From: Sporomusa sphaeroides DSM 2875
GTDB lineage: Bacteria; Bacillota; Negativicutes; Sporomusales; Sporomusaceae
Length of the DNA stretch: 64,000 nt
Assembly: GCF_001941975.2 (NCBI RefSeq)
Contig: NZ_CP146991.1
Span: 1,970,524-2,034,523, forward strand
Direction: 5' to 3'
Shown here: in pieces, positions 23,795 through 39,016 of the stretch
Numbering within the stretch: position 1 is the first letter of the stretch
How the letters are laid out: each line of letters begins with the position of its first letter
The notes under the pieces: model-generated
What the model was told of the DNA's origin: nothing
The model's input: only the letters and a program-made list of their open reading frames with translations
Database searches by the model: none
Program-made: the position numbers and the translations under genes

Positions 23795-23841
23795 AAAAAT
23801 AAATTAACCACTTAGATGGTCAGTTTAAAGGTGGGATACTA

Positions 23842-24477: not shown

Positions 24478-24595
24478 TTTTGTATAGAATAAAGATGTAC
24501 TAATCATGGTAAGTGTAAGTTCAAGGTGTTGATAACAGATAGACCGTGTGATACGCTAAATAATAGATAAAAAAATATGGACAGAGGAGGATAGC

Positions 24596-24784: not shown

Positions 24785-24787
24785 AAC

Positions 24788-24904: not shown

Positions 24905-24929
24905 CAGCCGGATTGTGTGCGTGATATTA

Positions 24930-24995
24930 AAGCCTGCCGGAATAGTTGATAAAAGGTTAATGCCTTTGTTGCTATTCTTGCAGGCTTTTAATTTT
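24930..24995 (+). terminator. Terminator in the left part of the island
   Basis: AAGCCTGC...GAATAG pairs with CTATTC...GCAGGCTT around a long loop; TTTTAATTTTT follows. Confidence 0.6.
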
Positions 24996-25018
24996 TAGAA
25001 AAGAGAGGGGATTTACTT

Positions 25019-25291
25019 ATGAAAACTACACAAAAATTATTTACCTTGGATGCTGAGAAAGGAACCATAATTGAGCTTTCGATAGAGCAAGTAAAAGAAA
25101 TTGTTGCCCGAAATGAGAAGCAGGATATAACAAAAAAAGCATATAGCCCAGAAGAAGCCAGAAAGATTATTGGTCTTGGACGTAATACCTTCATGGAGCT
25201 TTTACACAGCGGCAAAATTAAGGGAATTAAAGCCGGTGCTAAATGGCTTGTTCCGAATTGGGCTATTGACGAATTTTTGCAAGCCAAATAA
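25019..25291 (+). CDS. Second excisionase-like helix-turn-helix protein, 90 residues
   Basis: After a 40-residue lead the protein has YSPEEARKIIGLGRNTFMEL, LLHSGKIKGIKAGAKWLVPN and WAIDEFL, an HTH_17/excisionase winged helix. AGAGAGGGG is present upstream of ATG 25019. It is separate from the first such protein (24596), so the element has at least two DNA-binding proteins of this type on its left side and a third at 31918. Confidence 0.7.
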   Translation: MKTTQKLFTLDAEKGTIIELSIEQVKEIVARNEKQDITKKAYSPEEARKIIGLGRNTFMELLHSGKIKGIKAGAKWLVPNWAIDEFLQAK

Positions 25292-25391
25292 AGAAAATCC
25301 CGCCCGGGCGAGGGCGAGACATGGCGGTGATTTGATGATTTACCCAAATTATAGCAGTAATTTAGCATGGCAGCAATGGCGGTGTTAGGAA

Positions 25392-26129
25392 ATGGCAGCT
25401 GGTGGGTATGTAAAACTAACAAGATGCTTAATACAAAAACCAATCTTTCAAAATGAAAAGCTATTAAAGGTTTGGATATGGTGCTTGCTCAAAGCAAGCC
25501 ACAAGGAACATGAGCAATTAATAGGACTTCAAAAAATCAATCTTCAGCCAGGTCAATTTATCACGGGACGCTATGCCGGAGCCAAAGAATTAAAGATGAA
25601 CCCATCAACATTTTGGAAATATTTGCTTTGGTTAAACAACAATCAAAGTTTGGACATCCAGAGTAACAACAAATTTAGTCTTGTAACCCTTATAAACTGG
25701 GAGTTATACCAGATTGAGCCTCCAAAAAGTGACAGCAAAAATGACAGCAAAATGACAACAAAAGAACAACAAAATAACACAAACAAGAATGTAAAGAATG
25801 GTAAGAATGAAAATAATAATATATATAGTGTTGAAACGATTCCTTTTAGGGAAATTATCGACTACCTTAATCAAAGTTGTGGGACAAGTTACCGAGTAAC
25901 AGAGAAGCACAAAACTAGCATAAGGACACGCTGGCAAGAAAAGTATACTTTTGATGATTTTAAAAAGGTTATTGAAAAAAAGGCCAAAGAGTGGCTGGGG
26001 ACAGATAGTGCAAAATACTTGCGCCCTGAAACTTTGTTTGGAACAAAATTCGATAGTTATCTTAATCAGCTTGAAACAGAACCCAAAGTCGAAATAAAGC
26101 CAGTAAGTAAAACAAACTGGCTCACATAA
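25392..26129 (+). CDS. Phage replication initiation protein (DnaD-like, Phg_2220_C domain)
   Basis: The 245-residue protein has an N-terminal winged-helix part (YVKLTRCLIQKPIFQNEKLL), an Asn/Lys-rich linker (about 115-140), and a C-terminal domain with IIDYLNQSCGTSYR and FGTKFDSYLNQ, the conserved phage C-terminal domain seen in replisome organisers. Such proteins load helicase at the phage origin, and a helicase gene follows 18 bases later. The ribosome-binding site is weak (TTAGGAA). Confidence 0.75.
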   Translation: MAAGGYVKLTRCLIQKPIFQNEKLLKVWIWCLLKASHKEHEQLIGLQKINLQPGQFITGRYAGAKELKMNPSTFWKYLLWLNNNQSLDIQSNNKFSLVTLINWELYQIEPPKSDSKNDSKMTTKEQQNNTNKNVKNGKNENNNIYSVETIPFREIIDYLNQSCGTSYRVTEKHKTSIRTRWQEKYTFDDFKKVIEKKAKEWLGTDSAKYLRPETLFGTKFDSYLNQLETEPKVEIKPVSKTNWLT

Positions 26130-26147
26130 CGGGAAGGAGGACAAGCC

Positions 26148-27455
26148 TTGTTAATATTTGACCCTGAAAACGAACGATACATATTAGGTGCTTGTACAGA
26201 AGGACCCGAATACCTAGGGGAAGCGTTAGCCGAGTTAACGGCAGCAGACTTTTACCAACGAGAGAATAACATCATTTTTGAAGCTATGGCAAAGATGTAC
26301 CAGGACGGCCGGGAAGTGACGGCACAGACATTTTACATAGAGCATAGCGACATGATAAAGCGGCTAGGTGTTAGTTGGACAACGCTAACTGATGTTTTTA
26401 CCAATCCGACAGCCTTTAAGGTGGCAATTGCCAAACTGAAAGAGACTACCAAGGCAAGGAATTTAATGACTTTGTCTGACACCATACGCCAGGATATAGA
26501 GAACGGCACTAGCGTTGATGAAGTTAAGGCCAGAATAGAAATAGCGCTTTCAAAATGTGAGAATGCAGCCGGTCGGCATTATATATCGCCAAAAGATATG
26601 TCAAGGATATGCCTAGATGTAGTTGCAGAACGGATGGAGCCGGAGGGACGCGCTAAGAAGTGTATTTATACCTGTTTTGGCGCCTTGAATAAAGCAACAG
26701 GAGGTATTGAATCAGGAGACTTAATTATACTATCTGGCAGCACCGGGGGCGGGAAATCCGCGTTTGCGGCTAATCTAGCGCGTGATGTTTGTGTAACTCA
26801 GAAGTTGCCGGGTCTTTATATCAATTCGGAGATGTCGGCAGATCAGATGGCTCTCAGGTGGTCGGCTATATTGGCTGAATTATCCCATACGGCATTGAGG
26901 GCAGGAAAACTGTCAGACTGTGATTTTAATAAATTGCCGCTAAAATTAGATGCCTTTGACACTGGTGGGCTGCACACTTTGACTATCCCGGACTTGCGAA
27001 TTAATACAGTATTATCGGAAATACGCCGCTTTAAGGCAAAAGAGAACATCAGGCTGGCAATCGTTGACTACATAGGCCGTATGGACTTTCTGGACTCAAA
27101 GGCTGATGATTGGCAGTTACTAACCGGAGCAGCTAGACGCTTAAAAACCATAGCGCAAGAGCAGCAGCTGGCAATTATCATGCTGGCACAATTAAGCGCA
27201 TCGGGTAAACTGGCACAGGCTAGTTACATGAGCCATGAAGCAGACTTATGGCTTAACCTCAGGAAGCCAAACGAGGAAGAGACTAAGACATTTTTGGGGA
27301 GCAAGGACCCCTGGAATATAGTTTTAGAGATTGTCAAAGGCCGTAATACTCGAACAGGAGCCATGCCTTTGTATTTCTTTGGTGACAGGCTGACATTCAC
27401 CGATGATAAGGCCAAGGCCTTGTACTATGCAAAATTTGTACAGGCGGCGGGGTAG
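26148..27455 (+). CDS. DnaB-like replicative helicase
   Basis: The 435-residue protein has an N-terminal DnaB-type helical domain (ERYILGACTEGPEYLGEAL), a RecA-like core with Walker A GSTGGGKSAFAANLA (about 196-210), IAIVDYIGRM-like Walker B (LAIVDYIGRM) and the arginine-finger/final strand region VLEIVKGRNTRTG. TTG start at 26148 with GGAAGGAGG upstream. With the preceding gene it makes an autonomous replication module of the element. Confidence 0.85.
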   Translation: MLIFDPENERYILGACTEGPEYLGEALAELTAADFYQRENNIIFEAMAKMYQDGREVTAQTFYIEHSDMIKRLGVSWTTLTDVFTNPTAFKVAIAKLKETTKARNLMTLSDTIRQDIENGTSVDEVKARIEIALSKCENAAGRHYISPKDMSRICLDVVAERMEPEGRAKKCIYTCFGALNKATGGIESGDLIILSGSTGGGKSAFAANLARDVCVTQKLPGLYINSEMSADQMALRWSAILAELSHTALRAGKLSDCDFNKLPLKLDAFDTGGLHTLTIPDLRINTVLSEIRRFKAKENIRLAIVDYIGRMDFLDSKADDWQLLTGAARRLKTIAQEQQLAIIMLAQLSASGKLAQASYMSHEADLWLNLRKPNEEETKTFLGSKDPWNIVLEIVKGRNTRTGAMPLYFFGDRLTFTDDKAKALYYAKFVQAAG

Positions 27456-27485
27456 GGCTGTAACTTCAGAAAGGGGGCGGGATGG

Positions 27486-27698
27486 TTGCCTGATAAATCA
27501 AAGATTATTGACTTTAGGCAAGCTAAAAGCAAGCGTGAGCAATCGAACGAAACTGTAGCGGTTTGTATGGTTGAGCAATGTCGCTGGAATGATGGAAACG
27601 GCGGCTGCCGGCACGATGCGGAACATTTTTTAATTGAATTTTACCAGGGAATAGCCCAATGCACATTCTTTGAAAAGCAGGGTGGTAGCTTTGGATAG
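27486..27698 (+). CDS. Small Cys-containing protein, 70 residues
   Basis: Unknown phage-type protein. Cysteines and histidines (VEQCRWNDGNGGCRHDAEHF, IAQCTFFE) suggest a metal-binding knuckle. TTG start at 27486 after GGGGGCGGG. It overlaps the next gene by a few codons in another frame. Confidence 0.5.
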   Translation: MPDKSKIIDFRQAKSKREQSNETVAVCMVEQCRWNDGNGGCRHDAEHFLIEFYQGIAQCTFFEKQGGSFG

Positions 27699-27870
27699 TT
27701 TTGTGATTATCCGGTTAGCGCGGCAGATTGTAGCTTTGACAGAAAGCGAAGTCCTACAAATGCTGAAGGCTAATCCCTTAATATGGCTTGAGGGTATTAA
27801 ACGCGGCAAAGGTATTAACCGTTATGAAAAGGCACAGGCACGAAAACCAAAGGGGGCAGTGCATGAATAA
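27691..27870 (+). CDS. Small protein of unknown function, 59 residues
   Basis: Product MDSFVIIRLARQIVALTESE then a basic tail RYEKAQARKPKGAVHE. TTG 27691 with GGTGG upstream is my choice; GTG 27682 in the same frame is possible. It overlaps its neighbours by a few bases on both sides, typical of a phage early operon. Function unknown. Confidence 0.45.
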   Translation: MDSFVIIRLARQIVALTESEVLQMLKANPLIWLEGIKRGKGINRYEKAQARKPKGAVHE

Positions 27871-28123
27871 GCAGGTAATCTGCCCGTTGTGTGGCAGCAT
27901 GACAATAGTCAAACCAAATGACTTTTATATTTGCCCTGACTGCGACTGCGAAATATGGCCAAGCAGTGATACCGGGAAACAGCTTCAAGAAACCTTTGAC
28001 GAACAAATTCGGACTGGCTATTATGGCAATCCCAAAGGTAAGGGCGGCAGCAAGAGCAGGAGCCGAAAAAAGACAACAGTCAAGCCTGCGCGATTTTACA
28101 ACAGTCTTTTAGATGTGGAGTAA
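27863..28123 (+). CDS. Zinc-ribbon protein, 86 residues
   Basis: Two CxxC knuckles, CPLCGS and CPDCDC, 20 residues apart form a zinc ribbon; the tail is very basic (KGGSKSRSRKKTTVKPARF). AGGGGGCAGTGC precedes ATG 27863. A longer in-frame start at 27788 would lie inside the previous gene and lacks a ribosome-binding site. Probably a nucleic-acid-binding phage protein; role unknown. Confidence 0.6.
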   Translation: MNKQVICPLCGSMTIVKPNDFYICPDCDCEIWPSSDTGKQLQETFDEQIRTGYYGNPKGKGGSKSRSRKKTTVKPARFYNSLLDVE

Positions 28124-28134
28124 GGGGGCGAATC

Positions 28135-28755
28135 ATGTTTACTGTTTTGCAAGGTCGCAAGAAAGCGAAGCCGGACTATGCCGGGCTACATATTAGGGCA
28201 CTTATGCGCCTATTAGAAGAAAACAAGCAAGGCGAAGTCTATATATCCAGCGTAATCTATCATGGCGTTAAATATCTTATTCACTCAGATATTACGGGGT
28301 TAGATTATAGCGGACTTATGAAAAGGCTTGAATTTACTGAGCAAATAAAGGCGATAATGCAGACGCTGACACCACGGGAATTAATGCAGGTTTTCCCGCC
28401 CAAAAAGGACTATGACGGCGGCAAGCGGCAGTGCAAAGATTATTACTTTACCATGCAAGCAATGCGGGAGCATGGGTTAAATAAGCCTATAGGCCGTGAA
28501 ATTGGTAGTATTCTTTGGGACTACATGAATAATGACCTAATGAATTTCGTTTGCGGTGAATTAAGCCTGATAAGCGCCATGCGGCGGCTGGAAGGTAAGC
28601 CGGGGCTTATGGAAAAGTTTGCAGAAGATAATGGGCTGACGGTTTACAGGAAATATGTAGACATCACCGGCAAGGAGTTTATGCAGAATGGTACTACTGG
28701 CGAAGTCCATAGAGTGCATAAAAAAAGGCCGCGATATATGCGGGTAGTGGAATAG
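28135..28755 (+). CDS. Uncharacterised phage protein, 206 residues
   Basis: I do not recognise the family. The protein has MKRLEFTEQIKAIMQTLTPR and a middle with FPPKKDYDGGKRQCKDYY, and ends in a basic tail HKKRPRYMRVVE. Start ATG 28135 follows AAGGGGGCG. In a run of small same-strand genes after the helicase; probably an early phage function. Confidence 0.6.
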   Translation: MFTVLQGRKKAKPDYAGLHIRALMRLLEENKQGEVYISSVIYHGVKYLIHSDITGLDYSGLMKRLEFTEQIKAIMQTLTPRELMQVFPPKKDYDGGKRQCKDYYFTMQAMREHGLNKPIGREIGSILWDYMNNDLMNFVCGELSLISAMRRLEGKPGLMEKFAEDNGLTVYRKYVDITGKEFMQNGTTGEVHRVHKKRPRYMRVVE

Positions 28756-28765
28756 GGGTGATGTG

Positions 28766-28981
28766 ATGCTTACAAGCGGCGTTATTCTTTGTTTGCAATG
28801 TAAAAGCAGCCATGTGGATATTCTTCACTGGACAGGGCAGGGCGCAGTTACACAGTGTGCTAATTGTGGCTGTCAGGGCTTTATAGCATGTTTGAGTATT
28901 GGCCGGGTTGAATTGCATAATGAGCAGATTAATAAAGCACAACGTGACATGGCATTGCCTACTTGTGGGCGGGTTGGGTAG
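28766..28981 (+). CDS. Small zinc-ribbon protein, 71 residues
   Basis: CLQCKS and CANCGC are spaced 24 residues apart, forming a zinc ribbon. ATG 28766 follows AGGGGTG; the GTG just before is in the same frame. The stop codon lies inside the loop of a GC-rich hairpin (28965-28992). Confidence 0.5.
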   Translation: MLTSGVILCLQCKSSHVDILHWTGQGAVTQCANCGCQGFIACLSIGRVELHNEQINKAQRDMALPTCGRVG

Positions 28982-28992
28982 ATCCCGCCCAC
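28965..28992. repeat. GC-rich hairpin, GTGGGCGGG/CCCGCCCAC
   Basis: Perfect 9-bp stem around a 10-base loop between two island genes. Similar hairpins stand at 32354-32381, 35179-35195 and 35500-35518. Confidence 0.7.
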
Positions 28993-29014
28993 TAAGGCCA
29001 AGGAGTGAAAGCTA

Positions 29015-29461
29015 ATGCATACCAAGCAAGCTGAATACCTGTTACTGAATTACCCTTCTTTGTCGGCACAACTCCATAATGAGCAGCAGAACATTTTGCA
29101 AAGATATCGGCAGACGGCTTTTGCCTGTGGTATAGGACATAGTTACAGCTATTCTGATTCGACAGGGAGCAAGGCCGTTAAGCTGGTAATGCTTGAAGAA
29201 GAGTACAGGAGCACTATTCTTATTAGCCGGTGGATTGATACTGAATTAAGGCCGCGAGATAGGCCGTTATTAATAAACAGGTGGCGGCGGCTTGATTGGA
29301 TGGCAATATCGCGGCGGTCGGGGGTGGATGCCTGGACATGCATAACAGCGTGGAATTTGATGATAATGCAATTAACCGAATACCTGAAAGCCTATGCTGG
29401 ACATGCCAGCGGTGCGGCTGGCGTTGTCTCTGTAAGTGGCCGGATAGCCGCCAAGGTGTAA
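29015..29461 (+). CDS. Phage protein with possible ArpU/RinA-like regulatory fold, 148 residues
   Basis: Helical protein: YPSLSAQLHNEQQNILQRYR near the start, then KAVKLVMLEEEYRSTILISR and a region WMAISRRSGVDAWTCITAWN that may be a helix-turn-helix. Late-gene activators of Gram-positive phages have this layout, but I cannot be sure. AAGGAGTGAAAGC precedes the ATG. Its last 124 bases are shared with the next gene in another frame. Confidence 0.5.
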   Translation: MHTKQAEYLLLNYPSLSAQLHNEQQNILQRYRQTAFACGIGHSYSYSDSTGSKAVKLVMLEEEYRSTILISRWIDTELRPRDRPLLINRWRRLDWMAISRRSGVDAWTCITAWNLMIMQLTEYLKAYAGHASGAAGVVSVSGRIAAKV

Positions 29462-29562
29462 CAACCCGCCCGCTGGTTATGAATGGTGAAACTCTTGAAA
29501 TAGTGGTGAAGTGTGACCGGTACTGGCCGGAAGATTATAACCCGGATACCGAGAGGGGATAG
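29338..29562 (+). CDS. Cys-rich small protein overlapping the previous gene, 74 residues
   Basis: From ATG 29338 (preceded by GGGGGTGG) the frame encodes a credible small protein with clustered cysteines, CWTCQRCGWRCLCKW, and a later VVKCDRYWPEDYNP. The composition looks like a real metal-binding protein, unlike a random frame. It overlaps the 3' end of the 29015 gene by 124 bases. Confidence 0.5.
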   Translation: MHNSVEFDDNAINRIPESLCWTCQRCGWRCLCKWPDSRQGVTTRPLVMNGETLEIVVKCDRYWPEDYNPDTERG

Positions 29563-29566
29563 CAAA

Positions 29567-29812
29567 ATGACAAAAGAGCAGCAGGAGCTCGTTAATAGGG
29601 CTATTGCTCTACTGGAACAGGCCAGAAACATTGAAGAAGTACATAGCTGGTTGAAGAATCGCGCCATGGGTGTAGCTACTAGAATTGAGGGTGTGGACGT
29701 TGAAACCGTACAGGCCGCTATTGATGCCTTTAACGATAGGGAGCAGGCCGCTTGTACAAGGGAGTTTGTTGGGGTACTTGATGAATTGACCAAAGCAATA
29801 ATTAGGGGGTAA
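29567..29812 (+). CDS. Small helical protein, 81 residues
   Basis: Acidic helical protein (ELVNRAIALLEQARNIEEVH, VETVQAAIDAFNDRE). GAGGGGATAGC precedes ATG 29567. No recognised family; sits directly before the tail-hub gene. Confidence 0.5.
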   Translation: MTKEQQELVNRAIALLEQARNIEEVHSWLKNRAMGVATRIEGVDVETVQAAIDAFNDREQAACTREFVGVLDELTKAIIRG

Positions 29813-29819
29813 TTGGATA

Positions 29820-30806
29820 ATGAATGATGTGCAAATTTTGATTAATAACGGTGGCAAGCTATATGAACCCATTGTGGAAGAGGGAATCTCCTGGGAGACC
29901 ACCCGTAAAGGTGCACCTGGCAAACTAACGTTTAATGTGTTAGTGGATAATACTATTGACTTTACCGAGGGAAACGCTGTCAGGATGGCCGTAGATGGAA
30001 CAGATGTTTTCTATGGTTATGTGTTTACTAAGAAACGCGATAAGGACGGCATTATCCAGGTTACCGCCTATGACCAGTTAAGATACCTTAAGAATAAGCA
30101 TACCATGCACTATGAACGGCTGACTGCCTCTGAACTTATCAAAAAGGTAGCTGCCATTCATCTACTGAAGGTTGGAGAAATCGAAGACACTGAATATGTC
30201 ATTGAAAAGAGGGTTGAGGACAATCAGACACTCTTTGATATTATTCAGGAGGCTATTGGGATAACGCTAGAAAACAAGAAAAAGCTTTATGTTCTTTATG
30301 ATGATTTTGGTAAATTGACCTTGAAAAACATTGAGAGCATGAAACTTGATTTACTGATTGACGCGGAAACCGGCGAGAACTTTGATTATGTATCTAGTAT
30401 TGATCATAGGACTTTTAACCGGGTTAAGCTCTACCGGGAAAATAAGGACACCGGTAAGCATGAGGTTTTTACTGCTCCTCAAGATCCGGAAGAGTTCACC
30501 GCATCGGAAAGTATTAAGAAATGGGGTGTACTCCAATACTGCGAAAAGATTGATGAAGGAGTAACCAATCCTCAGGCTATGGCAGACGCATTACTGGAAA
30601 TGTATAATCGGAAAACACGAAGCCTGAGCATTAATAATGCTTTTGGTGATATCAGGGTAAGGGCCGGGTCGCATATCGCTGTACAGCTTGCATTAGGCGA
30701 TATCACAGTAAATAAACATATGCTAGTCGAAGGGGCAAAGCATGTGTTTACTAATAGGCAGCACACGATGAACCTTAGTTTGCGGAGCAGTGAGTTTAAC
30801 GCTTAG
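29820..30806 (+). CDS. Phage tail hub/baseplate protein (XkdQ/YqbQ-like)
   Basis: The 328-residue protein matches the XkdQ/YqbQ family of PBSX-type contractile-tail phages: VEEGISWETTRKGAPGKLTF, YGYVFTKKRDKDGII, VTAYDQLRYLKNK and VRAGSHIAVQL. These form the hub under the tail tube, related to gp27. Length is full and the frame is intact. It is the only recognisable structural gene in the element, with no tail or capsid neighbours, which is odd. Confidence 0.8.
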   Translation: MNDVQILINNGGKLYEPIVEEGISWETTRKGAPGKLTFNVLVDNTIDFTEGNAVRMAVDGTDVFYGYVFTKKRDKDGIIQVTAYDQLRYLKNKHTMHYERLTASELIKKVAAIHLLKVGEIEDTEYVIEKRVEDNQTLFDIIQEAIGITLENKKKLYVLYDDFGKLTLKNIESMKLDLLIDAETGENFDYVSSIDHRTFNRVKLYRENKDTGKHEVFTAPQDPEEFTASESIKKWGVLQYCEKIDEGVTNPQAMADALLEMYNRKTRSLSINNAFGDIRVRAGSHIAVQLALGDITVNKHMLVEGAKHVFTNRQHTMNLSLRSSEFNA

Positions 30807-30912
30807 AGCGGAGGTTAAGCAGAAGAGCCTATATGCGACAGACAGAGAGAACAGGCGGCCAGTGAGATGATGCCGCCCAATAATGTAGGTTGGTGGTGAC
30901 AGATGGCAGGTT

Positions 30913-31173
30913 ATGACCAGAAAAGAAAGCCGTCAGACGTTAGAAGCATACCGGATATTCAAGAGCCTGGGCGATAGCCGAAGGCTCAAAGATGTTGCCA
31001 GGATAACAGGCAAAAACCTGTCATTGATAAAACGGTGGAGTGCAAAATATCACTGGCTACAGCGTATAGAGGATGAAGAGCCGCCGGAGATTAAAGCGAT
31101 TAAAGCAGAAATACGGCAGCGCTTGGAGAGAATTAAAGCTATGCGAGCTATGTTTAGGCAACTGCGTTATTAG
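30913..31173 (+). CDS. Helix-turn-helix protein resembling the N-terminus of a small terminase
   Basis: The 86-residue product (AYRIFKSLGD, KDVARITGKNLSLIKRWSAK, YHWLQRIEDEE) matches the DNA-binding N-terminus of XtmA/YqaS-like terminase small subunits, which start with such a helix-turn-helix followed by a charged helix. The usual C-terminal half is missing here; a candidate remnant lies at 31562-31684. Either a trimmed regulator or the front part of a broken terS. Confidence 0.5.
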   Translation: MTRKESRQTLEAYRIFKSLGDSRRLKDVARITGKNLSLIKRWSAKYHWLQRIEDEEPPEIKAIKAEIRQRLERIKAMRAMFRQLRY

Positions 31174-31917
31174 TTGCGTTACTATTTTGGTGACCCTTAT
31201 AGGTAACGTTCCCTTTCAAAAGGTACGCCAATGGTAACGTGATATTTAAAACGGTGTACCAGAACAGGGGTAATATTCGAAACAAACAAACGATATGCCG
31301 AAATTACGGGACCCAAACCAACCATTATTGGCTAGGTGTCGGGCGGGGCGAGATGCACATAATGCACGTAAAATTGCACTATGTGCATTGCACCCTTTGC
31401 ACCCAAGATGCATTTTTGTATGCATCCAGTCTGTAGACTTTGAATACAAAAAGTAAAAAAGGTATTCAAGGTGTAGACGGTTCAGAGCTAATAAAATGAC
31501 CGTCATTACATTACTTGTACTAACGTTGCTAAAAAGTGCCGCCAATCTAGTAAAATTAACGGTTGGGCATGCTTACAAAAGGTAAGAAAATGTTAGGTTT
31601 TTGCAATATGCTGAGAACTTATTAAAACCTAATATTCGTGAATATATAGACATGCCACTGGCGGCAAAAAGTATGCGAGAATAGGCCGCTTGCATTATTT
31701 AAAAATAGTGCAAAAGGTGTGCAAAATGCTGCAAAATCAATAACCAGAACTAACCATTTTGGGTATTCAGTATCAGCAGTTAAGTAACAGCAGGGAAGAA
31801 TCCAACGGGGATTTTATCATGTCCACAATGTACCCAATATGTGAAGGTGGACAAAAAAGTGGACATTACTATAAGTACCAGTGAAAAATAATTTTGCTGG
31901 TATAATAGGAGGTCGCA
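31174..31917. other. Non-coding stretch of the island with iteron-like repeats and a terminase remnant
   Basis: About 740 bases without an intact gene. GGTAACG occurs twice near 31203-31245. TGCACATA (31354-31361) and TATGTGCA (31380-31387) form an inverted repeat within a run of TGCAC/GTGCA words. TGCAAAA occurs at 31709, 31720 and 31730, spaced 11 and 10 bases. This looks like an origin, packaging or control region, but no single function can be shown. Confidence 0.45.
31562..31684 (+). pseudogene. Possible remnant of a terminase small subunit (Terminase_2)
   Basis: One frame reads VGHAYKR, a stop, then ENVRFLQYAENLLKPNIREY and IDMPLAAKSMRE before a second stop. Small terminases of the XtmA type have AGYSKKTA...NLLTKPNIKNYID at this place. 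There is no start codon and one in-frame stop, so it would be a decayed piece, perhaps once joined to the gene at 30913. Confidence 0.4.
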
Positions 31918-32223
31918 ATGCTAGAAAAAATCTACTGCCTAGAATGCCGCACTGAGTTAACGACCAAGGCAAAATTTTGTCCGGAGTGCGGCAAGCCAGC
32001 ACCAAAACCGGAACCGATACAGCCTAAGGCCCAAGAACAAAAACAATTCCCACCGATCATGAACATTGAACAAGTCGCAGAATTTCTATGTATATCAAAA
32101 TGTCACGTTTATAGGCTGATAAAAAATGAAGGTCTACCATATTTCCCGGTCAGTCAGCATAAGAGATTCATCGCTGACGAAATTATGCAATGGGCTAAAA
32201 GTAGGCAAATTATGAATAAATAG
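31918..32223 (+). CDS. Zinc ribbon plus excisionase-type helix-turn-helix, 101 residues
   Basis: N-terminal zinc ribbon (CLECRTE...CPECGKP), a Pro/Gln-rich linker (about 28-45), and a C-terminal HTH_17 domain (MNIEQVAEFLCISKCHVYRL, IKNEGLPYFPVSQHKRF, ADEIMQWAKSR). AGGAGGTCGCA precedes the ATG. Third excisionase-like protein of the element; the zinc-ribbon fusion is unusual for a plain Xis. Confidence 0.7.
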   Translation: MLEKIYCLECRTELTTKAKFCPECGKPAPKPEPIQPKAQEQKQFPPIMNIEQVAEFLCISKCHVYRLIKNEGLPYFPVSQHKRFIADEIMQWAKSRQIMNK

Positions 32224-32353
32224 AGACTTACATATAAATTACAGCAATACAGAACATATGTTTTTATTTGGTTTTAGCCTCGCTGTGGCGTTTTTGCATG
32301 GTGGGCAGGGTGTTTGTACTAGTGGCTATATAAAGTGGCTTAAAAAGCCTTAA

Positions 32354-32381
32354 ATTGGACGGGGCTATCATCCCGCCCAAT
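32354..32381. repeat. GC-rich hairpin, ATTGGACGGG/CCCGCCCAAT
   Basis: Ten-base stem with one mismatch and an 8-base loop, same type as at 28965. Confidence 0.6.
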
Positions 32382-32383
32382 AG

Positions 32384-32414
32384 ACAAAAAAATAAGCCGG
32401 CTACTAGGGCCGGT
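32384..32414 (-). terminator. Minus-strand terminator after the 32425 gene
   Basis: Read on the minus strand, ACCGGCC-ctagta-GCCGGC is followed by TTATTTTTTTG. Confidence 0.7.
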
Positions 32415-32424
32415 GTAGTCTCAG

Positions 32425-33258
32425 TTATTTTGATTTTAACTGACTATGAAGTTGGCTTATTGCTTTTTGAGCTTCAGCTAGCTTTCGTTTTTGTTCCTCT
32501 TTGGAGAGCAACTCATCAAGAATTAATTCAATACCGGATTTTACCACAGGGAAATAGCTGATACATTCTTCTTCTGAAAGCTCATGGATGCCTTTACTTA
32601 AAATAGAGTACAATGTCCAATTATCAACTAAGAATTGTGGCAAGAACCCTTTTAAGCAAACTATTTTTTCATGTACTTTTTTATTTTGATAGTCAGTTTC
32701 ATTCCATCCATAAGACGTTTTAGCTTCATTATGGGCAGTATCTAAGATATGCTCAAAAACTCTTCTTAGATATACGAAAGAGCCTATTCCAATCTCAGAG
32801 CTTGCCAGACCGATAGCTCTATTAAGCTCTTTAAACTTATCTGTATCAAGGACTTTCTTGTATTTTGATGTTGTTGGCCTCATAAGGTCAGTGTAAGACG
32901 GATATTGACCAATTTTAACTAAACTAGTGGACGTAACGTGAAAATTAAAAACTATGGTGTGATCTGTATTAGCGGCACATTCGCCAACCAGGGTAATACA
33001 TTTATCTCTGACAATTGAATTGAATTTACTCAAGTCGACTTCTTCAGCTACATACCCTAAAACTGTTGGACCGGGTATTTTTGGCAGGTAGGGTATTATC
33101 TTAAATACGCTATCATTACGGCACTCATTACAATAAGCTCGAGCTGATCCGCCAATAAGAAGAATTTCAGCACATGTGACTTTATCAGAGGTATTGTTGA
33201 GCTCTATACGGTCATATATTCGCTTGCTAATACATAGATTTTGCAAATCTAAGTCCAT
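32425..33258 (-). CDS. Uncharacterised protein with Cys motif, 277 residues
   Basis: Not recognised. It has a CNECRND segment near residue 43 that may be half of a zinc site, and a middle helical part (GIGSFVYLRRVFEHILDTAH) and end KEEQKRKLAEAQKAISQLHS, a coiled-coil tail. The layout recalls DUF4145-like proteins of defence islands, but this is a guess. AAGGAGA six bases before ATG 33258 decides the start; an upstream in-frame ATG (33288) lies inside the repressor gene. Co-transcribed with the repressor. Confidence 0.6.
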   Translation of the reverse strand: MDLDLQNLCISKRIYDRIELNNTSDKVTCAEILLIGGSARAYCNECRNDSVFKIIPYLPKIPGPTVLGYVAEEVDLSKFNSIVRDKCITLVGECAANTDHTIVFNFHVTSTSLVKIGQYPSYTDLMRPTTSKYKKVLDTDKFKELNRAIGLASSEIGIGSFVYLRRVFEHILDTAHNEAKTSYGWNETDYQNKKVHEKIVCLKGFLPQFLVDNWTLYSILSKGIHELSEEECISYFPVVKSGIELILDELLSKEEQKRKLAEAQKAISQLHSQLKSK

Positions 33259-33268
33259 AATGTTCTCC

Positions 33269-33490
33269 TTACTTTGTAAAGTCTTCATTTTGGTTGGGAA
33301 TGTACTCTATAAGGTCACCGGGCTGGCAGTTGAGGGCAGCGCAGAGCTTATCAATTATTTCAAGTGATACATAGTCATTGGTATTGAGTTTGGCCATAGT
33401 AGCTTTAGAAATGCCAGTCAGTTGCATGATATCTTGCTTTTTCATTTCTTTATCTATTAACAGTTTTAGAAATGGTTTATAGCTAATCAT
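33269..33490 (-). CDS. Cro/CI-type repressor, 73 residues
   Basis: A compact XRE-family helix-turn-helix (KQDIMQLTGISKATMAKLNT, then LEIIDKLCAALNCQPGDLIE). This is the usual size of YozG-type phage regulators. GGTAGGTG precedes the ATG on the minus strand. It lies divergent from the gene at 33635, with two facing promoters and repeated operator-like words between, and so is the likely switch of the element. Confidence 0.85.
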   Translation of the reverse strand: MISYKPFLKLLIDKEMKKQDIMQLTGISKATMAKLNTNDYVSLEIIDKLCAALNCQPGDLIEYIPNQNEDFTK

Positions 33491-33512
33491 ATTATCACCT
33501 ACCTTTGTTTAA

Positions 33513-33541
33513 ATAGTAACAAAAAAAGTTTAATAAGTCAA
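33513..33541 (-). promoter_or_regulatory. Promoter of the repressor operon
   Basis: On the minus strand TTGACT (33541-33536), 17 bases, TACTAT (33518-33513). The spacer contains the operator-like word whose plus-strand form is AGTTTAAT (33527-33534), repeated inverted as ATTAAACT at 33592-33599. Confidence 0.7.
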
Positions 33542-33550
33542 ACCAAAGTA

Positions 33551-33579
33551 TTGACATGCTATGCATAATAAGTTATACT
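33551..33579 (+). promoter_or_regulatory. Strong rightward promoter facing the repressor gene
   Basis: TTGACA (33551-33556), 17 bases, TATACT (33574-33579). AAAGTATT flanks it on the left (33545) and recurs at 33600-33607. Probably repressed by the CI-like protein. Confidence 0.75.
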
Positions 33580-33634
33580 ATAGTTAGATAAATTAAACTA
33601 AAGTATTACAAAATAAACAGAGAGGGTGCGAAAA

Positions 33635-34060
33635 ATGTTGAAATCCATAGTAACAACCATAGGCAATGCCCTGGTAGCCAAAGGCATATCCCGCCCGGAA
33701 GCTTTTCAAAAAGCCTGGGGCATGGCAAGGAGCAAGTTCTTTACCAAGGCCGTTGGCGTTACTGTGGGGAACCGGCAGGAAGCATTAAAGCGGCTGGCAC
33801 AGTATGAGCGGGAACTGGTCAAGGTGTACCTGGTACATGAAAGTAATAACCCGGTTGATGCTAACGCTGTGGCCGTAGTGGTTACTGTGGCAGGCAGCAA
33901 GGAATACAAGATAGGCTATATCAAAGCTAAATACACTGCACTACTGGCAAGGGTAATAGATAAGGTCGGCGGCAAGCTGGGAGCAGCAGTAGAGAATATT
34001 ACGGGCGGGGGCGGGGTGAAACGGTACGGCTTAAATATCAGCTATGCACTAGGTGCATAG
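33635..34060 (+). CDS. HIRAN-domain protein, 141 residues
   Basis: After a 35-residue helical start, the protein reads VGVTVGNRQEALKRLAQYER, VKVYLVHESNNPVDANAVAV, and KIGYIKAKYTALLARVID. The EsNNPvDaNAVaV...IGYi pattern is that of the HIRAN domain, which binds DNA 3' ends or damaged DNA in SNF2 helicases and occurs alone in phages. ATG 33635 follows AGAGAGGGTG. First gene under the rightward promoter. Confidence 0.75.
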   Translation: MLKSIVTTIGNALVAKGISRPEAFQKAWGMARSKFFTKAVGVTVGNRQEALKRLAQYERELVKVYLVHESNNPVDANAVAVVVTVAGSKEYKIGYIKAKYTALLARVIDKVGGKLGAAVENITGGGGVKRYGLNISYALGA

Positions 34061-34186
34061 GAAAAGGCTGCTCAGTGTACCACCACTAAACAGCCAGGGA
34101 CAAGCAGAAACCAGAAAAGCCCCGCTGTCAAATCCATTCTATCAGGCGGCGGGGTACATAGTCAAACTGATGGGAGGATACAAAAT

Positions 34187-34375
34187 ATGACAGACTTTGA
34201 GAAGGAACGTCTCAACCGTTATATTACCGATGCCGGCCAATGGCTGACCACCATTCAGTCTATATTGCAATATCCTAAGACACCGGCTCAGGCGGCAGCA
34301 TTAACCCTTACCTGGGCGGCTAGCGAATTGGTTAGAGGAATTAAGCAGCAAATACTCATAGATAAAGGGCGGTAA
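34187..34375 (+). CDS. Small protein of unknown function, 62 residues
   Basis: Helical product (ERLNRYITDAGQWLTTIQSI, AAALTLTWAASELVRGIKQQ). TGGGAGGATAC precedes the ATG. No recognised family. Confidence 0.5.
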   Translation: MTDFEKERLNRYITDAGQWLTTIQSILQYPKTPAQAAALTLTWAASELVRGIKQQILIDKGR

Positions 34376-34380
34376 AATAT

Positions 34381-34560
34381 ATGTTTTCAAAAATGCCGCG
34401 AATTATGGCACGTCTTGAAAGCGAAGCAATGAAATCTAAGCTACAGCGATTGGCCAGAGAAAATGGCCGTACTCTTAGCAGTGAAGTTGGGCAGATTGTA
34501 AAGCGGTACATTATGCAATATGAACAAAAATATGGTGAAATAAAAATCCATAAAGATTAA
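34381..34560 (+). CDS. Arc-type ribbon-helix-helix protein, 59 residues
   Basis: Short protein with a beta strand and two helices in the ribbon-helix-helix pattern (PRIMARLESEAMKSKLQRLA, then GRTLSSEVGQIVKRYIMQYE). Starts six bases after the previous gene. It is followed by a second protein of the same fold, so the pair may be paralogues or co-regulators. Confidence 0.55.
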   Translation: MFSKMPRIMARLESEAMKSKLQRLARENGRTLSSEVGQIVKRYIMQYEQKYGEIKIHKD

Positions 34561-34599
34561 CGAATATATCAGAACCCTTTGTTTAAAGGAGTGAGGAAC

Positions 34600-35151
34600 A
34601 TGTCGCCAAACCTACCAAGTGTCGGAATAAGACTTAGCGATTCTTTAAAAGCGAAGTTGCTGTATATCGCGGAACATAATAACCGTTCTATAGACAAGGA
34701 AATAGCAGCAGTTCTAACCTGGTATGTAAATAAGTTTGAACAAAAGCGCGGTAAAATCAAAGTAAATTTGGCAAAAGATCTGGAAAATTATCAAAACACT
34801 ACGGATAATGGGGGAATGAGCATGTACATGTCAAACCGTATTTGCCCAGATTGCGGTGAAAAATTAATGCTGGCTTGGCGTTGGCCCGAAATTATTATGA
34901 ATCGTCCGGTTCGTCTGGTGTTTATCTGCAAGCAATGCAATGGCGAAGTAAAAGAAATCCCTGAGAGCTCTACTGTTATCTATGCAAATGGTCGCAATGT
35001 GTTAGATCGGCATATTGATGTATATAATCAGGCAGTTCCTTTCATGGCTGAGAATTATTTACGCATTAACACAAGGGATATACACCAGAGTAGTGACCCC
35101 GCGATAATAGCTTATAGGCAGGGGCTTACCGCGGCGTGTGCGATAGGCTAA
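34600..35151 (+). CDS. Ribbon-helix-helix plus zinc-ribbon protein, 183 residues
   Basis: The N-terminal 50 residues (SVGIRLSDSLKAKLLYIAEH, SIDKEIAAVLTWYVNKFE) form an Arc-like ribbon-helix-helix; from residue 80 a zinc ribbon follows (ICPDCGEKLML...FICKQCNGEV). AAGGAG and GAGGAA stand before ATG 34600. An internal Met (about 74, preceded by GGGGGAATGAGC) could be a second start producing the zinc-ribbon part alone. Confidence 0.55.
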   Translation: MSPNLPSVGIRLSDSLKAKLLYIAEHNNRSIDKEIAAVLTWYVNKFEQKRGKIKVNLAKDLENYQNTTDNGGMSMYMSNRICPDCGEKLMLAWRWPEIIMNRPVRLVFICKQCNGEVKEIPESSTVIYANGRNVLDRHIDVYNQAVPFMAENYLRINTRDIHQSSDPAIIAYRQGLTAACAIG

Positions 35152-35178
35152 CAGTGACAGAATCAGTCTAGTTGATTG

Positions 35179-35195
35179 GGCGGGGTAGCCCCGCC
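35179..35195. repeat. GC-rich hairpin, GGCGGGG/CCCCGCC
   Basis: Seven-base perfect stem with a 3-base loop in an intercistronic gap of the island. Confidence 0.6.
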
Positions 35196-35268
35196 TACTT
35201 GCTATAAAAACAATGAACCGGGAACAAAAAGCAAATACCAACACATTATTTTGAATGGAGAGATAATT

Positions 35269-35457
35269 ATGATGAACGATGTAAAAACCACTGTTGTTGT
35301 TATGCAGACTGATGGACAAAAAACAAACCTTTTCATATATGGGGCAAAGTCGATAAAGGAACTCCATGATGTAAGCAAGGTCGCTTTAAAACTAGACAAT
35401 TGTAGTATCCACTATATTGACAAAATAGATAGTTTAGCTAAGGTCTTAGTGGCCTAG
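35269..35457 (+). CDS. Small protein of unknown function, 62 residues
   Basis: Product MMNDVKTTVVVMQTDGQKTN then beta/alpha residues ending LDNCSIHYIDKIDSLAKVLVA. GGAGAG precedes the ATG pair at 35269/35272. No recognised family. Confidence 0.5.
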   Translation: MMNDVKTTVVVMQTDGQKTNLFIYGAKSIKELHDVSKVALKLDNCSIHYIDKIDSLAKVLVA

Positions 35458-35499
35458 CACTGCAAATGACCAAAAGTAATAGTGAGACAACAAGAAGGG

Positions 35500-35518
35500 G
35501 TGGGGCAATCCCGCCCAC
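35500..35518. repeat. GC-rich hairpin, GTGGGG/CCCGCCCAC
   Basis: Short imperfect stem before the integrase gene; same type as at 28965. Confidence 0.5.
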
Positions 35519-35579
35519 TACTCAATAAAAAAAGTATAGCAAGCCTAAAACAGGCGAATAATGAAGGGTGGTGTGAGTA

Positions 35580-36731
35580 ATGGCAAAGCGTGAATCAGGG
35601 GTTGGCACAGAGATTAAATGGCTGGAAGATAAGCAGTTATTTTGCCAGCGGTTTGGCTATAAGGATAAGGCCGGCAGGAACAAGGTTAAGGCTATTTATG
35701 GCAAGAGCAAAGGTGAGATAGCTGAGAAGCGCAAGGCATGGCAGAAGGAGTTAGAATCCGGGGTTGATATGGCGGCCAGCAAAGGAACTTTTGGGCAGTT
35801 AATCTCTAACTGGTTAGAGGTTGACAAGAAAAAGACACTTGAGATTACTTCATATGAATTGTATAAGTCGCTGATAAATAAACATATCATTCCTGAGCTT
35901 GGCAAGACAAAGTTAAAAGATTTGGACAGAGTAAGAATACAGCAATTCATTAACAGCAAGGATGAAAAACTATCTAGAAAAAGCTTGGAATTACTGCGAA
36001 CTATCATTGGAAATTGCTTGAGCAATGCGGTATTAGATGACATCATTATTAAAAATCCAGCTATAGGGGTAAAGATACCCAAAAAGCCTGTTGCAGGCAG
36101 GGACGAAGTAAAGCCCTTTACTGAGGAAGAATTAGGCAAGATATTAAAATCCAGTGACGGAAAGTATCTTCAGAATATCATTTATGTGGCGGCCTTTACA
36201 GGCATGAGAAAAGGCGAGTTGCTAGGCTTGCGCTGGCAGGACGTTGATACTAAAAAAGGTGTGATTAATGTCCGGCAAGGTGCTAAGTACACAGCCACAG
36301 AGCAAAAAATGATTGTAGGGAACTTAAAGACGGAAAAAGCATTCCGTACAATTCCAATTAATGATAAGGTAAAGGCCGCTCTCAAGAAGCAGAAAGCATG
36401 GCAGGCCGCCAATAAGCTAGAGCTAGGAACTGCCTACACCAATAACAACCTAGTATTCACGCTTGAAACAGGCGAAATGGTTAAAGGTACACAGATTACA
36501 AACGCATTTTGCCGAGCAACTAAGGCAGCAGGTGTAGAGTATAGGAGCTTTCACCAACTACGGCATACGTTCGCCTCCATAGCGATAAGCCGGAAGGTAA
36601 ACATCAAAACACTGTCTGAGGTATTAGGGCATACCAATATTCAGATAACATACAACAAGTATGGGCACCTTTTAGAAGGTGATGCTGAAAGTGTAATAGA
36701 TGCAGTATCCAATTATTTAGCGGGATTATAA
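35580..36731 (+). CDS. Tyrosine integrase of the element
   Basis: The 383-residue protein has an N-terminal arm-binding domain (GVGTEIKWLEDKQLFCQRFG), a SAM-like core-binding domain (GQLISNWLEVDKKKTLEITS) and the catalytic domain with Arg in TGMRKGELLGL (about 210), HxxRH in HQLRHTFAS (about 325-329), LGHTN (His 351) and the nucleophile Tyr in NKYGH (361). It resembles Tn916/phage-type integrases and is the enzyme expected to use the flanking 17-bp repeats. Confidence 0.93.
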   Translation: MAKRESGVGTEIKWLEDKQLFCQRFGYKDKAGRNKVKAIYGKSKGEIAEKRKAWQKELESGVDMAASKGTFGQLISNWLEVDKKKTLEITSYELYKSLINKHIIPELGKTKLKDLDRVRIQQFINSKDEKLSRKSLELLRTIIGNCLSNAVLDDIIIKNPAIGVKIPKKPVAGRDEVKPFTEEELGKILKSSDGKYLQNIIYVAAFTGMRKGELLGLRWQDVDTKKGVINVRQGAKYTATEQKMIVGNLKTEKAFRTIPINDKVKAALKKQKAWQAANKLELGTAYTNNNLVFTLETGEMVKGTQITNAFCRATKAAGVEYRSFHQLRHTFASIAISRKVNIKTLSEVLGHTNIQITYNKYGHLLEGDAESVIDAVSNYLAGL

Positions 36732-36743
36732 AAGGTTGTTTTG

Positions 36744-36776
36744 CCGTCCGCCGGGAAACTGGTGGGCGGTTTTTTG
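36744..36776 (+). terminator. Terminator after the integrase gene
   Basis: CCGTCCGCC-gggaaact-GGTGGGCGG stem (two G-T pairs) followed by TTTTTTGTTTTT. It separates the integrase from the cargo operon. Confidence 0.85.
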
Positions 36777-37119
36777 TTTTTGCATAAAACTTCCTTTCCT
36801 AAATGTAATAAATTGGTCTGGCTTATTTACCTGCAACCTCAAACTATGCGATAATATACATAGGAATATCTACTTGTTACATGTCTATTGTGAGGATACA
36901 AATATTAAAAATGCACACAAGTATACATAAAAAAAGGAAATACCTGTGGACAAGTAAAGCGTTTTATCCACAAAGATTACATAATGCAGTATTTTTCTTA
37001 CATAATATGGATTTTGATATAGAACATGTTGGTAACTTTGTGGATATCTTGGAAGGTATTTCCAGTTAGATATAGAATAAGACATCAACATATATAAGGA
37101 TTACTGAACAGGGGGCATT
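36777..37119. other. Leader region of the cargo operon with DnaA-box-like words
   Basis: No convincing gene. TTATCCACA at 36964-36972 is a perfect DnaA box; TGTGGACAA (36945-36953) and TGTGGATAT (37039-37047) differ from its reverse complement by one base each. The first two form an inverted pair. AT-rich sequence surrounds them. It must also hold the promoter for 37120, which I cannot place. Confidence 0.45.
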
Positions 37120-37428
37120 ATGGGAGTTGTTATAAAAGAAAACGTTCCGTGTGAAATAGAAACTCCAAAAAAGGCTAATTCTATTAGGATTCATAGTATC
37201 GTCAAAGACGAAATAGTTATTGACTTTGGGCATGCAACACCAATAAATGAGTGTAAGGATTTCAATGTTGATGTTGTTGCTAGAGTTTCTATAGCACCAA
37301 AGATGATAAAAGAAATTACAGCCAGATTGTTAATTGCGGGTATGGAGTACCAAGAAAAATTCAATACTTCTATTGGCCTAAACGTAGAGAAGCGTGATGA
37401 GGATGCTTCTGTTGATAGAGGTGAATAA
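37120..37428 (+). CDS. Cargo gene 1: DUF3467-like protein, 102 residues
   Basis: The product reads SIRIHSIVKDEIVIDFGHAT, then DVVARVSIAPKMIKEITARL followed by GMEYQEKF. This pattern (beta strands ending in xDF, then ARxxxxP, then a helix and a YE-like end) is that of DUF3467, a small family known beside other conserved genes. ATG after AGGGGGCATT. First of three same-strand genes packed with a 2-base gap and a 4-base overlap. Confidence 0.55.
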   Translation: MGVVIKENVPCEIETPKKANSIRIHSIVKDEIVIDFGHATPINECKDFNVDVVARVSIAPKMIKEITARLLIAGMEYQEKFNTSIGLNVEKRDEDASVDRGE

Positions 37429-37430
37429 AA

Positions 37431-38072
37431 ATGTCATATAATGGTAATACTGTGCGTATAGATATTGATAACAACGGAAGAGCTGACATTGTATATTATG
37501 ATGTAAAAGAAATGCAGTCTATTTTAGCGAGCTCGCGACCGAAAAGCGAAAATGCGTGGCAAATACTAGCTAGTAGAATGTACAAAGCAAATGTTGCCGA
37601 TTTTATTAAATTTGGAGATTCTTTGAATCGCGTAAATAAGACTATAAGTGATTGGAGTCTCGAATTTTTACAAGCGGATTCTTCTGTTGATTTCAGTGGG
37701 AGTACGCCAATGAAAATTATATCAATAAAACAAAAAAAAGGTGCACAAGCTTGTTGTGATTTTGAGCAATTATCTAATTTGTTTGATATAGACAAAGAAG
37801 CTTGCGATTTTATTCGAAATAATTCTTTTCTTTTGCCGTTATTGGAAACACTACATTCAAAAATATTTGATTATTTCACCGATGCTAAACTTGGTCTCGA
37901 AGTTGTTAAAGATCCAGAAATAAAAGATGAGTCTCAATTATTTTTATCAATAGCTACAAGTACAAATCCTGAGTATGCCATCGAAAAATTATATGAGTTT
38001 GATCAGCAATGGTGGTTAGCAAATGTACACCAAGCCCAAGGTAAACTTTGTTTAGATGTGGTGTTCATATGA
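37431..38072 (+). CDS. Cargo gene 2: uncharacterised protein, 213 residues
   Basis: Not assigned to a family. The N-terminus is beta-rich (NTVRIDIDNNGRADIVYYDV), the middle is helical, and the C-terminus ends FDQQWWLANVHQAQGKLCLD, an ending I associate with uncharacterised proteins encoded beside small HEPN proteins. It starts two bases after cargo gene 1 and overlaps cargo gene 3 by four bases, so the three products are probably made in a fixed ratio. Confidence 0.55.
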   Translation: MSYNGNTVRIDIDNNGRADIVYYDVKEMQSILASSRPKSENAWQILASRMYKANVADFIKFGDSLNRVNKTISDWSLEFLQADSSVDFSGSTPMKIISIKQKKGAQACCDFEQLSNLFDIDKEACDFIRNNSFLLPLLETLHSKIFDYFTDAKLGLEVVKDPEIKDESQLFLSIATSTNPEYAIEKLYEFDQQWWLANVHQAQGKLCLDVVFI

Positions 38073-38500
38073 GTACCTTTGATTGGAGTAATTATTTGAC
38101 TTTTGCACAGGAGATTTGCGGTAAAAACAATGGACAAAATCCATGCCAAGAGGCCAAAATGAGATGTGCAATAAGTCGAGCTTACTATAGTGCATTTTGC
38201 AATGCCCGTAATTTCTTGAAAGATAATGGAGTTGATCTTCCGGACGATGCCAAGGTTCACGAAGTTGTTAAAAGCCAGTTTAATAAAAGTGCCAATGAGA
38301 CATATCAACAGATTGGAGAAAATTTGAATAGGCTGCGAATTGCAAGAAATAAAGCTGATTACAACAATAAGTATTATATAAACAATAGAGCGGCAACCAA
38401 CCTTGTGGGAGAGGCCATAAAATCTATAAGTTATTGTGAGACAGTAATCAGTAAATTACATAAACTATCACAAGACAAACAAACGAGCCAAGCCAAATAA
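38069..38500 (+). CDS. Cargo gene 3: HEPN-like protein, 143 residues
   Basis: Helical protein with the HEPN layout: CAISRAYYSAFCNARNFL (about 33-50) as first helix and RLRIARNKADYNNKYY (about 88-103) at the position of the catalytic RxxxxH motif. Here it is RNKADY, with Tyr in place of His, a variant seen in one HEPN branch. Many HEPN proteins are RNases in toxin-antitoxin or anti-phage systems. ATG 38069 overlaps the previous stop; an upstream start would add seven unsupported residues. Confidence 0.65.
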   Translation: MSTFDWSNYLTFAQEICGKNNGQNPCQEAKMRCAISRAYYSAFCNARNFLKDNGVDLPDDAKVHEVVKSQFNKSANETYQQIGENLNRLRIARNKADYNNKYYINNRAATNLVGEAIKSISYCETVISKLHKLSQDKQTSQAK

Positions 38501-38542
38501 TAATACTACAGACTGCTACCAGGCGATTTCAGTTTTTGCTTT

Positions 38543-38575
38543 AAGCCGCATCCTCCAGGGTGCGGTTTTCGTTTG
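38543..38575 (+). terminator. Terminator after the cargo operon
   Basis: CCGCATCC-tcca-GGGTGCGG stem followed by TTTTCGTTTG. Confidence 0.75.
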
Positions 38576-38613
38576 TTTATCAGACATTTTGGGAATAATC
38601 CCTTGCAGGTTTT

Positions 38614-38634
38614 GTATTACAATAAATATTACAA
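38614..38634 (+). repeat. Sub-terminal 21-bp direct repeat, right copy
   Basis: Identical to 23678-23698; followed by an inverted ATTGTAAT (38637-38644), giving a cluster of ATTACAA-type words at the right end. Confidence 0.65.
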
Positions 38635-38730
38635 TCATTGTAATACACCGCTAATTAACAAAGTACCTAAAAGTGAATAAAGCTAGCATAATCAAGTGCC
38701 ATAAAGCATAGATAAATAGTGAATATAAAA

Positions 38731-38747
38731 TATGATATTAAGTTAAG
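38731..38747 (+). repeat. attR candidate (17-bp direct repeat)
   Basis: TATGATATTAAGTTAAG, identical to 23585-23601. Sequence to the right leads directly into yqzK. Confidence 0.75.
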
Positions 38748-38788
38748 CCAGAGCCCATATTTCTAACGGGGGAGGGAAGAACAAGCGT

Positions 38789-39016
38789 ATGGTAGTGATG
38801 TTTTCTTGGCGGCGTGTAATCAAGCGGTCCAAACTGTATATTAGAATCGTCCTATTAACGCTTATCATCTTCTACATTCTGCCCAAATTAATGACCATGC
38901 TTTGGGAGTTTAGTAATCCCGGTCTTAAAATACGGGACCAGCACTTGTTAGAAAAACCGCTGCGGGTTATGACTGAAGCAAAGACGGCTGTCTCTTTACA
39001 GTATGACATAGATTAG
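38789..39016 (+). CDS. yqzK: YqzK-like DUF4227 membrane protein, 75 residues
   Basis: A small protein with one membrane helix (LYIRIVLLTLIIFYILPKLM) and a short C-terminal tail, as in B. subtilis YqzK (DUF4227). The same neighbour, xerD, follows in B. subtilis. The function is unknown. GGGGGAGGG lies upstream; the spacing to ATG 38789 is a little long. Confidence 0.65.
   Translation: MVVMFSWRRVIKRSKLYIRIVLLTLIIFYILPKLMTMLWEFSNPGLKIRDQHLLEKPLRVMTEAKTAVSLQYDID

Follow-up and report, generated by a model that had tools for sequence, protein, structure and literature searches.

We found that the last three genes of an integrative element in Sporomusa sphaeroides DSM 2875 form a compact cassette built around a HEPN protein (gene 3) and a partner protein encoded directly upstream of it (gene 2), and that this pair recurs in many bacteria and archaea, apparently as a traveling pair that has never been described. 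We put at roughly 60% the probability that this is a toxin-antitoxin-type module, with HEPN as the toxin and gene 1 as a third component that can be exchanged; the element would carry it as addiction and/or anti-phage cargo. Coordinates are those of the window, by which we mean the whole stretch of 64,000 nucleotides that was analyzed (Table 1).

Table 1. The integrative element, its repeats and its terminal cassette, in window coordinates.
Feature	Position	Strand	Basis or remark
Integrative element, ~15.1 kb	23602-38747		Ends set by 17-bp identical core repeat
Core repeat	left 23573-23601, right 38719-38747		17-bp identical core TATGATATTAAGTTAAG
Inner direct repeat, 21/21 identical	left 23678-23698, right 38614-38634		
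Tyrosine integrase of the element, 383 aa	35580-36731	+	ORF; family read from sequence
Terminator-like hairpin 3' of integrase	36743-36770	+	
Gene 1, DUF3467-like accessory component, 102 aa	37120-37428	+	ORF
Gene 2, proposed antitoxin / HEPN partner, 213 aa	37431-38072	+	ORF
Gene 2 conserved C-terminal domain, residues 106-213	37746-38069	+	AF2 model and alignment
Gene 3, HEPN (PF05168), proposed RNase toxin/effector, 143 aa	38069-38500	+	ATG at 38069
Gene 3 H64 codon, proposed catalytic His	38258-38260	+	Invariance and Kva2 alignment
Gene 3 R93-N-K-A-D97-Y98 (RNKADY) codons, R93 proposed catalytic	38345-38362	+	
Terminator-like hairpin of the cassette, 3' of gene 3	38543-38568	+	

The preliminary description of this region reported a tightly packed, same-strand trio with its own terminator, lying between the terminator of the integrase and the right repeat. 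The open reading frames and the two hairpins agree with this on every point. Genes 1 and 2 are separated by 2 nt, genes 2 and 3 overlap by 4 nt (ATGA), and the operon between the two terminators holds these three genes and nothing else (five terminators were found, versus 1.5 expected in shuffles). The cassette is the last cargo of the element before its right end. The element itself is real, because its spoIIM-side and xerD-side flanks are contiguous, as an empty site, in seven congeneric genomes, and in three of these the core was seen once. It looks phage-derived, since it encodes a Phg_2220_C protein, a DnaB-like helicase and a YqbQ-like protein (25392-31000). On its minus strand (32425-33490), a Cro/C1-type HTH gene (33269-33490, Pfam HTH_26) precedes a gene for a 287-aa protein of no Pfam family, and these two genes are possibly a second cargo or regulatory pair of the element. 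Upstream of gene 1 (36936-37063) are the inverted repeats TATCCACAAAG/CTTTGTGGATA and GGAAATACCT/AGGTATTTCC, as well as an exact, single-copy DnaA-box-like TTATCCACA at 36964. A DnaA-box cluster at this place was considered and rejected, as there is one exact match and the count in the window equals chance expectation. Nor was there support for a structured RNA in front of gene 1: the fold (z -1.15) is no better than that of shuffles, and a search of Rfam with positions 36700-38800 gave no match above gathering score.

Gene 3 scores above gathering against the Pfam HEPN family PF05168 (25.1 bits, cut-off 22) and matches solved HEPN structures in the PDB by sequence (9xbd, E 2.9e-10; 36ht, E 3.7e-4; 2hsb, E 2.7e-3). 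Its earlier classification as HEPN-like therefore holds, and homology to these structures indicates that it probably adopts the HEPN fold. The canonical Rx4-6H motif is absent from gene 3, with R93xxxDY in its place in all 76 homologs, and H64, R93, D97 and Y98 are invariant in 76/76, in bacteria and archaea alike. These four residues lie outside the pattern with which homologs were scanned, R[SCI][AG][IV]SR[ATF]YY, while the invariance of R32, S36, R37, Y39 and Y40 is by construction, because the pattern fixes them. H64, R93 and Y39-Y40 of gene 3 align with H64, R122 and Y41-42 (of the tyrosines Y40-42) in the HEPN protein of retron-Kva2; H64 and the tyrosine pair fall within the significant segment of the alignment, and R93 is equated with R122 on the strength of a second segment, VRGIVDYE, which is short and not significant, together with the shared R-DY pattern. 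The retron-Kva2 HEPN is without RxxxxH, its H64 and R122 come from both subunits to make one active site, its Y40-42 position the RNA, and the changes H64A, R122A and Y40-42A abolish defense (PMC13405049, preprint). In HEPNs of the AF0298 type (HEPN-T class) the H of Rx4-6H is absent and an alternative upstream His has been foreseen (PMC3710099). Against an RNase role, PF05168 HEPNs found beside MNTs have been described as being without an RNase motif (PMC7641770). Given that H64 and R93 never vary and coincide with the non-canonical active site known from retron-Kva2, gene 3 probably acts as the effector, and we take it to be a likely active RNase. As judged from sequence, RNKADY is a non-canonical site and no degenerate motif, so that of the two roles first suggested for gene 3, effector and degenerate sensor, only the former is favored.

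If genes 1 and 2 are partners of gene 3, as the preliminary description proposed, the three should be found together in other genomes. With genes 1, 2 and 3 as queries over 300 genomes of the class, two other Negativicutes were found to have the full trio, with order and spacing kept and with identities of about 28-41%: G252, a metagenome-assembled genome of Selenomonadaceae that holds locus L078, and G297, where gene 2 was located by its position and was not yielded by a single-sequence search. For a wider view of the pair, 80 loci from named genomes were chosen via the HEPN alignment only, of which 79 were kept after dropping a relative that is in the gene 2 profile. This profile, built from only seven sequences, has a match directly upstream of the HEPN gene in 72/79 loci; the window's gene 2 by itself, as a single query, finds 64/79. 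The commonest junction between gene 2 and the HEPN gene is again the 4-nt overlap (41/79 loci). The loci span Cyanobacteria, Chloroflexota, Bacillota, Acidobacteriota, Planctomycetes, Bipolaricaulota and others, and archaeal loci come from Archaeoglobales, Thermoplasmata, Methanomicrobiales and Heimdallarchaeota. Members of the gene 3 HEPN family also occur on plasmids of Gloeothece and Thermus and in an archaeal virus. When gene 2 instead served as the query, 299 genomes of the phylum yielded five non-self matches. One was a 37-column chance match, and in 4/4 of the remainder a HEPN gene overlaps or adjoins gene 2. The loci of this reverse test were chosen independently, but its profile is not independent, since some training members are also Bacillota. 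The distance matrices of gene 2 and HEPN are correlated (r=0.66, with 0/2000 permutations as high), a value that includes shared host phylogeny.

Several individual loci were also of note. A Calditrichaeota contig (L088:2776-6010) carries two complete sets of TIGR04255, gene 2 and HEPN in tandem, and L021 and L040 have repeated copies of gene 2. A genuine neighboring MNT-HEPN pair with the GSYARGEEEVYSDMDV motif is found at L016:4981-5734, in a genome of the same family, and offers a useful contrast.

Gene 2 has no family at useful scores in Pfam, NCBIfam, PHROG or PADLOC. Scans for close relatives with gene 2 alone in genome and viral collections gave no match, because the family diverges fast, and tblastn against phages and plasmids returned no real relatives. 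In the AF2 model, residues 106-213 are predicted with high confidence (pLDDT about 94-98) and the N-terminal half poorly. The C-terminal domain has a predicted alpha-beta-beta-alpha-beta arrangement, made up of helices followed by two strands, then a long helix and a final strand, and ends in FDxxWWL...GKLxxDV. Its best fold matches, YscD, the S3 KH domain and an MNT, are tied at Z about 6, which indicates a common arrangement and nothing more. The N-terminus varies among relatives: some have next to none, the gene 2 protein of locus L041 has an Xre HTH_3 domain (E 2e-13), and the N-termini of Microcoleus relatives appear RHH-like by eye; no DNA-binding domain was recognized in the window's own gene 2. 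Because the fold gave no clear match, the term "antitoxin" rests here on gene order and pairing. A position upstream of the toxin is the usual order for an antitoxin (PMC3710099), and by analogy the position of gene 2, its coupling to gene 3 and its variable, sometimes DNA-binding N-termini would make it antitoxin-like.

Gene 1 is less easily placed. The proposal that it is DUF3467-like fell short at Pfam, where it scores below threshold against PF11950 (13.6 bits, E 0.073, cut-off 25), and held up in a profile-profile comparison with DUF3467 members (hhalign P 78%, E 1.8e-5, 66 columns). The DUF3467 signature MSPQHAK is lost in gene 1, which reads APKMIKE there, and no function for DUF3467 was found in the literature searched. 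A gene 1 profile run over the 300 genomes of the class has matches in the three trio genomes only, and tblastn of gene 1 against phages gave no real relatives. The model of gene 1 is moderate (pLDDT 73) and its best fold matches, PC4/Pur-alpha-like with Z 4.7 or less, are not usable; no SecB-like match was seen.

The slot that gene 1 occupies is filled differently elsewhere. A TIGR04255 protein of ~248 aa stands ahead of genes 2 and 3 in 30/79 loci, and the archaeal virus has TIGR04255 in its first slot as well (hhalign 95.8%). We considered that gene 1 might be a relative or half of TIGR04255 and rejected this, the sequence comparison being without signal. In L077, L128 and L129 the gene directly upstream of gene 2 and HEPN encodes a protein of 213-235 aa from another family, which has no sequence relationship to TIGR04255 or to gene 1; for most cyanobacteria we saw no first gene at all. 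With TIGR04255, the 213-235 aa family, gene 1 or nothing in the first slot, genes 2 and 3 emerge as the core. The proposal that genes 1 and 2 are partners of gene 3 is supported and refined in this respect, gene 1 sitting in an exchangeable position. At L124:558-2334 and L126:1492-3120, two other small, overlapping genes follow TIGR04255 and there is no HEPN, so several different sets of three genes may have TIGR04255 at their head. A broader possibility is that genes 2 and 3 supply the effector part of a modular system, used for immunity or addiction and widespread in bacteria and archaea. The first gene would then be a swappable sensor (TIGR04255, DUF3467-like and at least one other family), each with its own trigger and each releasing the same non-canonical HEPN RNase. 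We offer this generalization tentatively, and would put the odds at about two to one against it.

How might such a module work? In our model, the products would appear in the order regulator (gene 1), antitoxin (gene 2) and toxin (gene 3). Gene 3 would be a dimeric RNase whose active site is made from H64 and R93 of both subunits, with Y39/Y40 holding the RNA; it would most likely cut tRNA or mRNA, and growth would then stop. Gene 2, translated just before gene 3 and coupled to it by the ATGA overlap, would bind the HEPN dimer with its conserved C-terminal domain and so keep it off, while its N-terminus, which looks DNA-binding in some relatives, may act like that of autorepressing antitoxins. 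Our guess for gene 1 is that it serves as the sensor or regulator deciding when gene 2 releases gene 3. Should gene 2 be lost, or captured under the control of gene 1, the RNase would be freed, and the element would benefit from the cassette as an addiction module, as anti-phage cargo or as both.

The cassette could also be a dedicated anti-phage abortive infection system, with genes 1 and 2 sensing a phage product to free the HEPN RNase and with addiction secondary, a logic comparable to that of retron-Kva2 or the TA-chaperone systems. The closest characterized HEPN is indeed the retron type IX effector (PDB 36ht; PADLOC HEPN_IX weakly matches 63/76 gene 3 homologs), the cassette occupies an integrase-adjacent cargo position, and the first gene, being exchangeable, has the look of a sensor that has been swapped. 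However, many copies are chromosomal in cyanobacteria, and the 135 flanking proteins sampled around the pair include only scattered restriction and other defense matches, an uncontrolled count that gives no clear defense-island signal. We regard abortive infection as a dedicated purpose as quite possible, at somewhat below even odds.

Two further explanations concern the activities of the individual proteins. Gene 3 lacks RxxxxH, and non-catalytic HEPN regulators such as MtlR exist (PMC3710099), so it could be an inactive HEPN that serves the element as an RNA-binding or regulatory (e.g. repressor-like) protein, with no toxin involved. The invariance of H64 and R93 from bacteria to archaea and the catalytic role of the equivalent residues in retron-Kva2 (PMC13405049) make this unlikely. 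Alternatively, the cassette could be a HEPN-MNT (type VII) system; gene 2 would then be a nucleotidyltransferase, very much diverged in sequence, with Y98 as the residue it modifies. Gene 2 occupies the same upstream position as the HEPN partner of those systems, a conserved Tyr adjoins an Arg as in class II HEPN/MNT toxins (PMC7641770), and the MNT chain 1ylq is among the tied fold matches (Z 6.0, rmsd 3.1 over 71 residues), although it ties there with KH and other alpha-beta-beta-alpha-beta domains. The GSX10DXD-like motif is missing from the window's gene 2 and from 70/71 family members, and comparison of the gene 2 profile with 21 MNTs (hhalign) gave a probability of 0.6%, versus 99.9% in a control, with no Pfam PF01909 match. 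On the absence of the motif and the profile comparison we rejected gene 2 as an MNT nucleotidyltransferase; the HEPN-MNT reading of the cassette is accordingly disfavored and, in our judgment, highly improbable.

We found no description of a HEPN with TIGR04255 or DUF3467, and no paper naming TIGR04255 at all, in the searchable literature, outside of which lie subscription journals and most preprints; within that scope, the initial impression that no described system contains this trio was correct. The analysis gives a partner to a large set of PF05168 HEPNs usually dismissed as having no RNase motif, and therefore a testable function, and it points out the His/Arg pair as the residues to mutate. 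A further outcome is an antitoxin-like family that spans bacteria and archaea and has no database model, and TIGR04255 and DUF3467, both families of unknown function, gain a common context.

Compared with known systems, the cassette resembles retron type IX (Kva2) in having a HEPN without RxxxxH, with a His and an Arg distant in sequence plus a tyrosine pair; unlike that retron, it has no reverse transcriptase, msDNA gene or winged-helix partner, and has genes 1 and 2 instead. With HepT/MntA (type VII) it shares a partner gene directly upstream of HEPN and a conserved Tyr near Arg, but gene 2 has no GSX10DXD and is no MNT by profile comparison, gene 3 has RNKADY instead of the class I RX4HXY, and a third gene is present. 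HEPN-T proteins of the AF0298 type (UPF0332, PDB 2hsb) resemble gene 3 in belonging to PF05168 and in having an Rx4-6H without its H and an alternative upstream His, whereas no non-MNT partner of the gene 2 kind has been described for them. The toxin-antitoxin-chaperone systems CmdTAC and MqsRAC likewise add a third gene to a toxin-antitoxin pair, but their toxins and antitoxins differ and gene 1 gave no SecB-like match. The TIGR04255 trios found in this analysis have the gene 2 family, HEPN, order and overlaps in common with the cassette, and differ in a ~248-aa first gene not detectably related to gene 1. As in type II toxin-antitoxin systems, the partner gene is upstream, overlapping and co-inherited (adjacent in 72/79, 4-nt overlap in 41/79, 4/4 in reverse). 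As a type, the cassette belongs with the HEPN toxin-antitoxin and HEPN-effector defense systems, and its partner family, first-slot variation and distribution are new relative to searchable sources.
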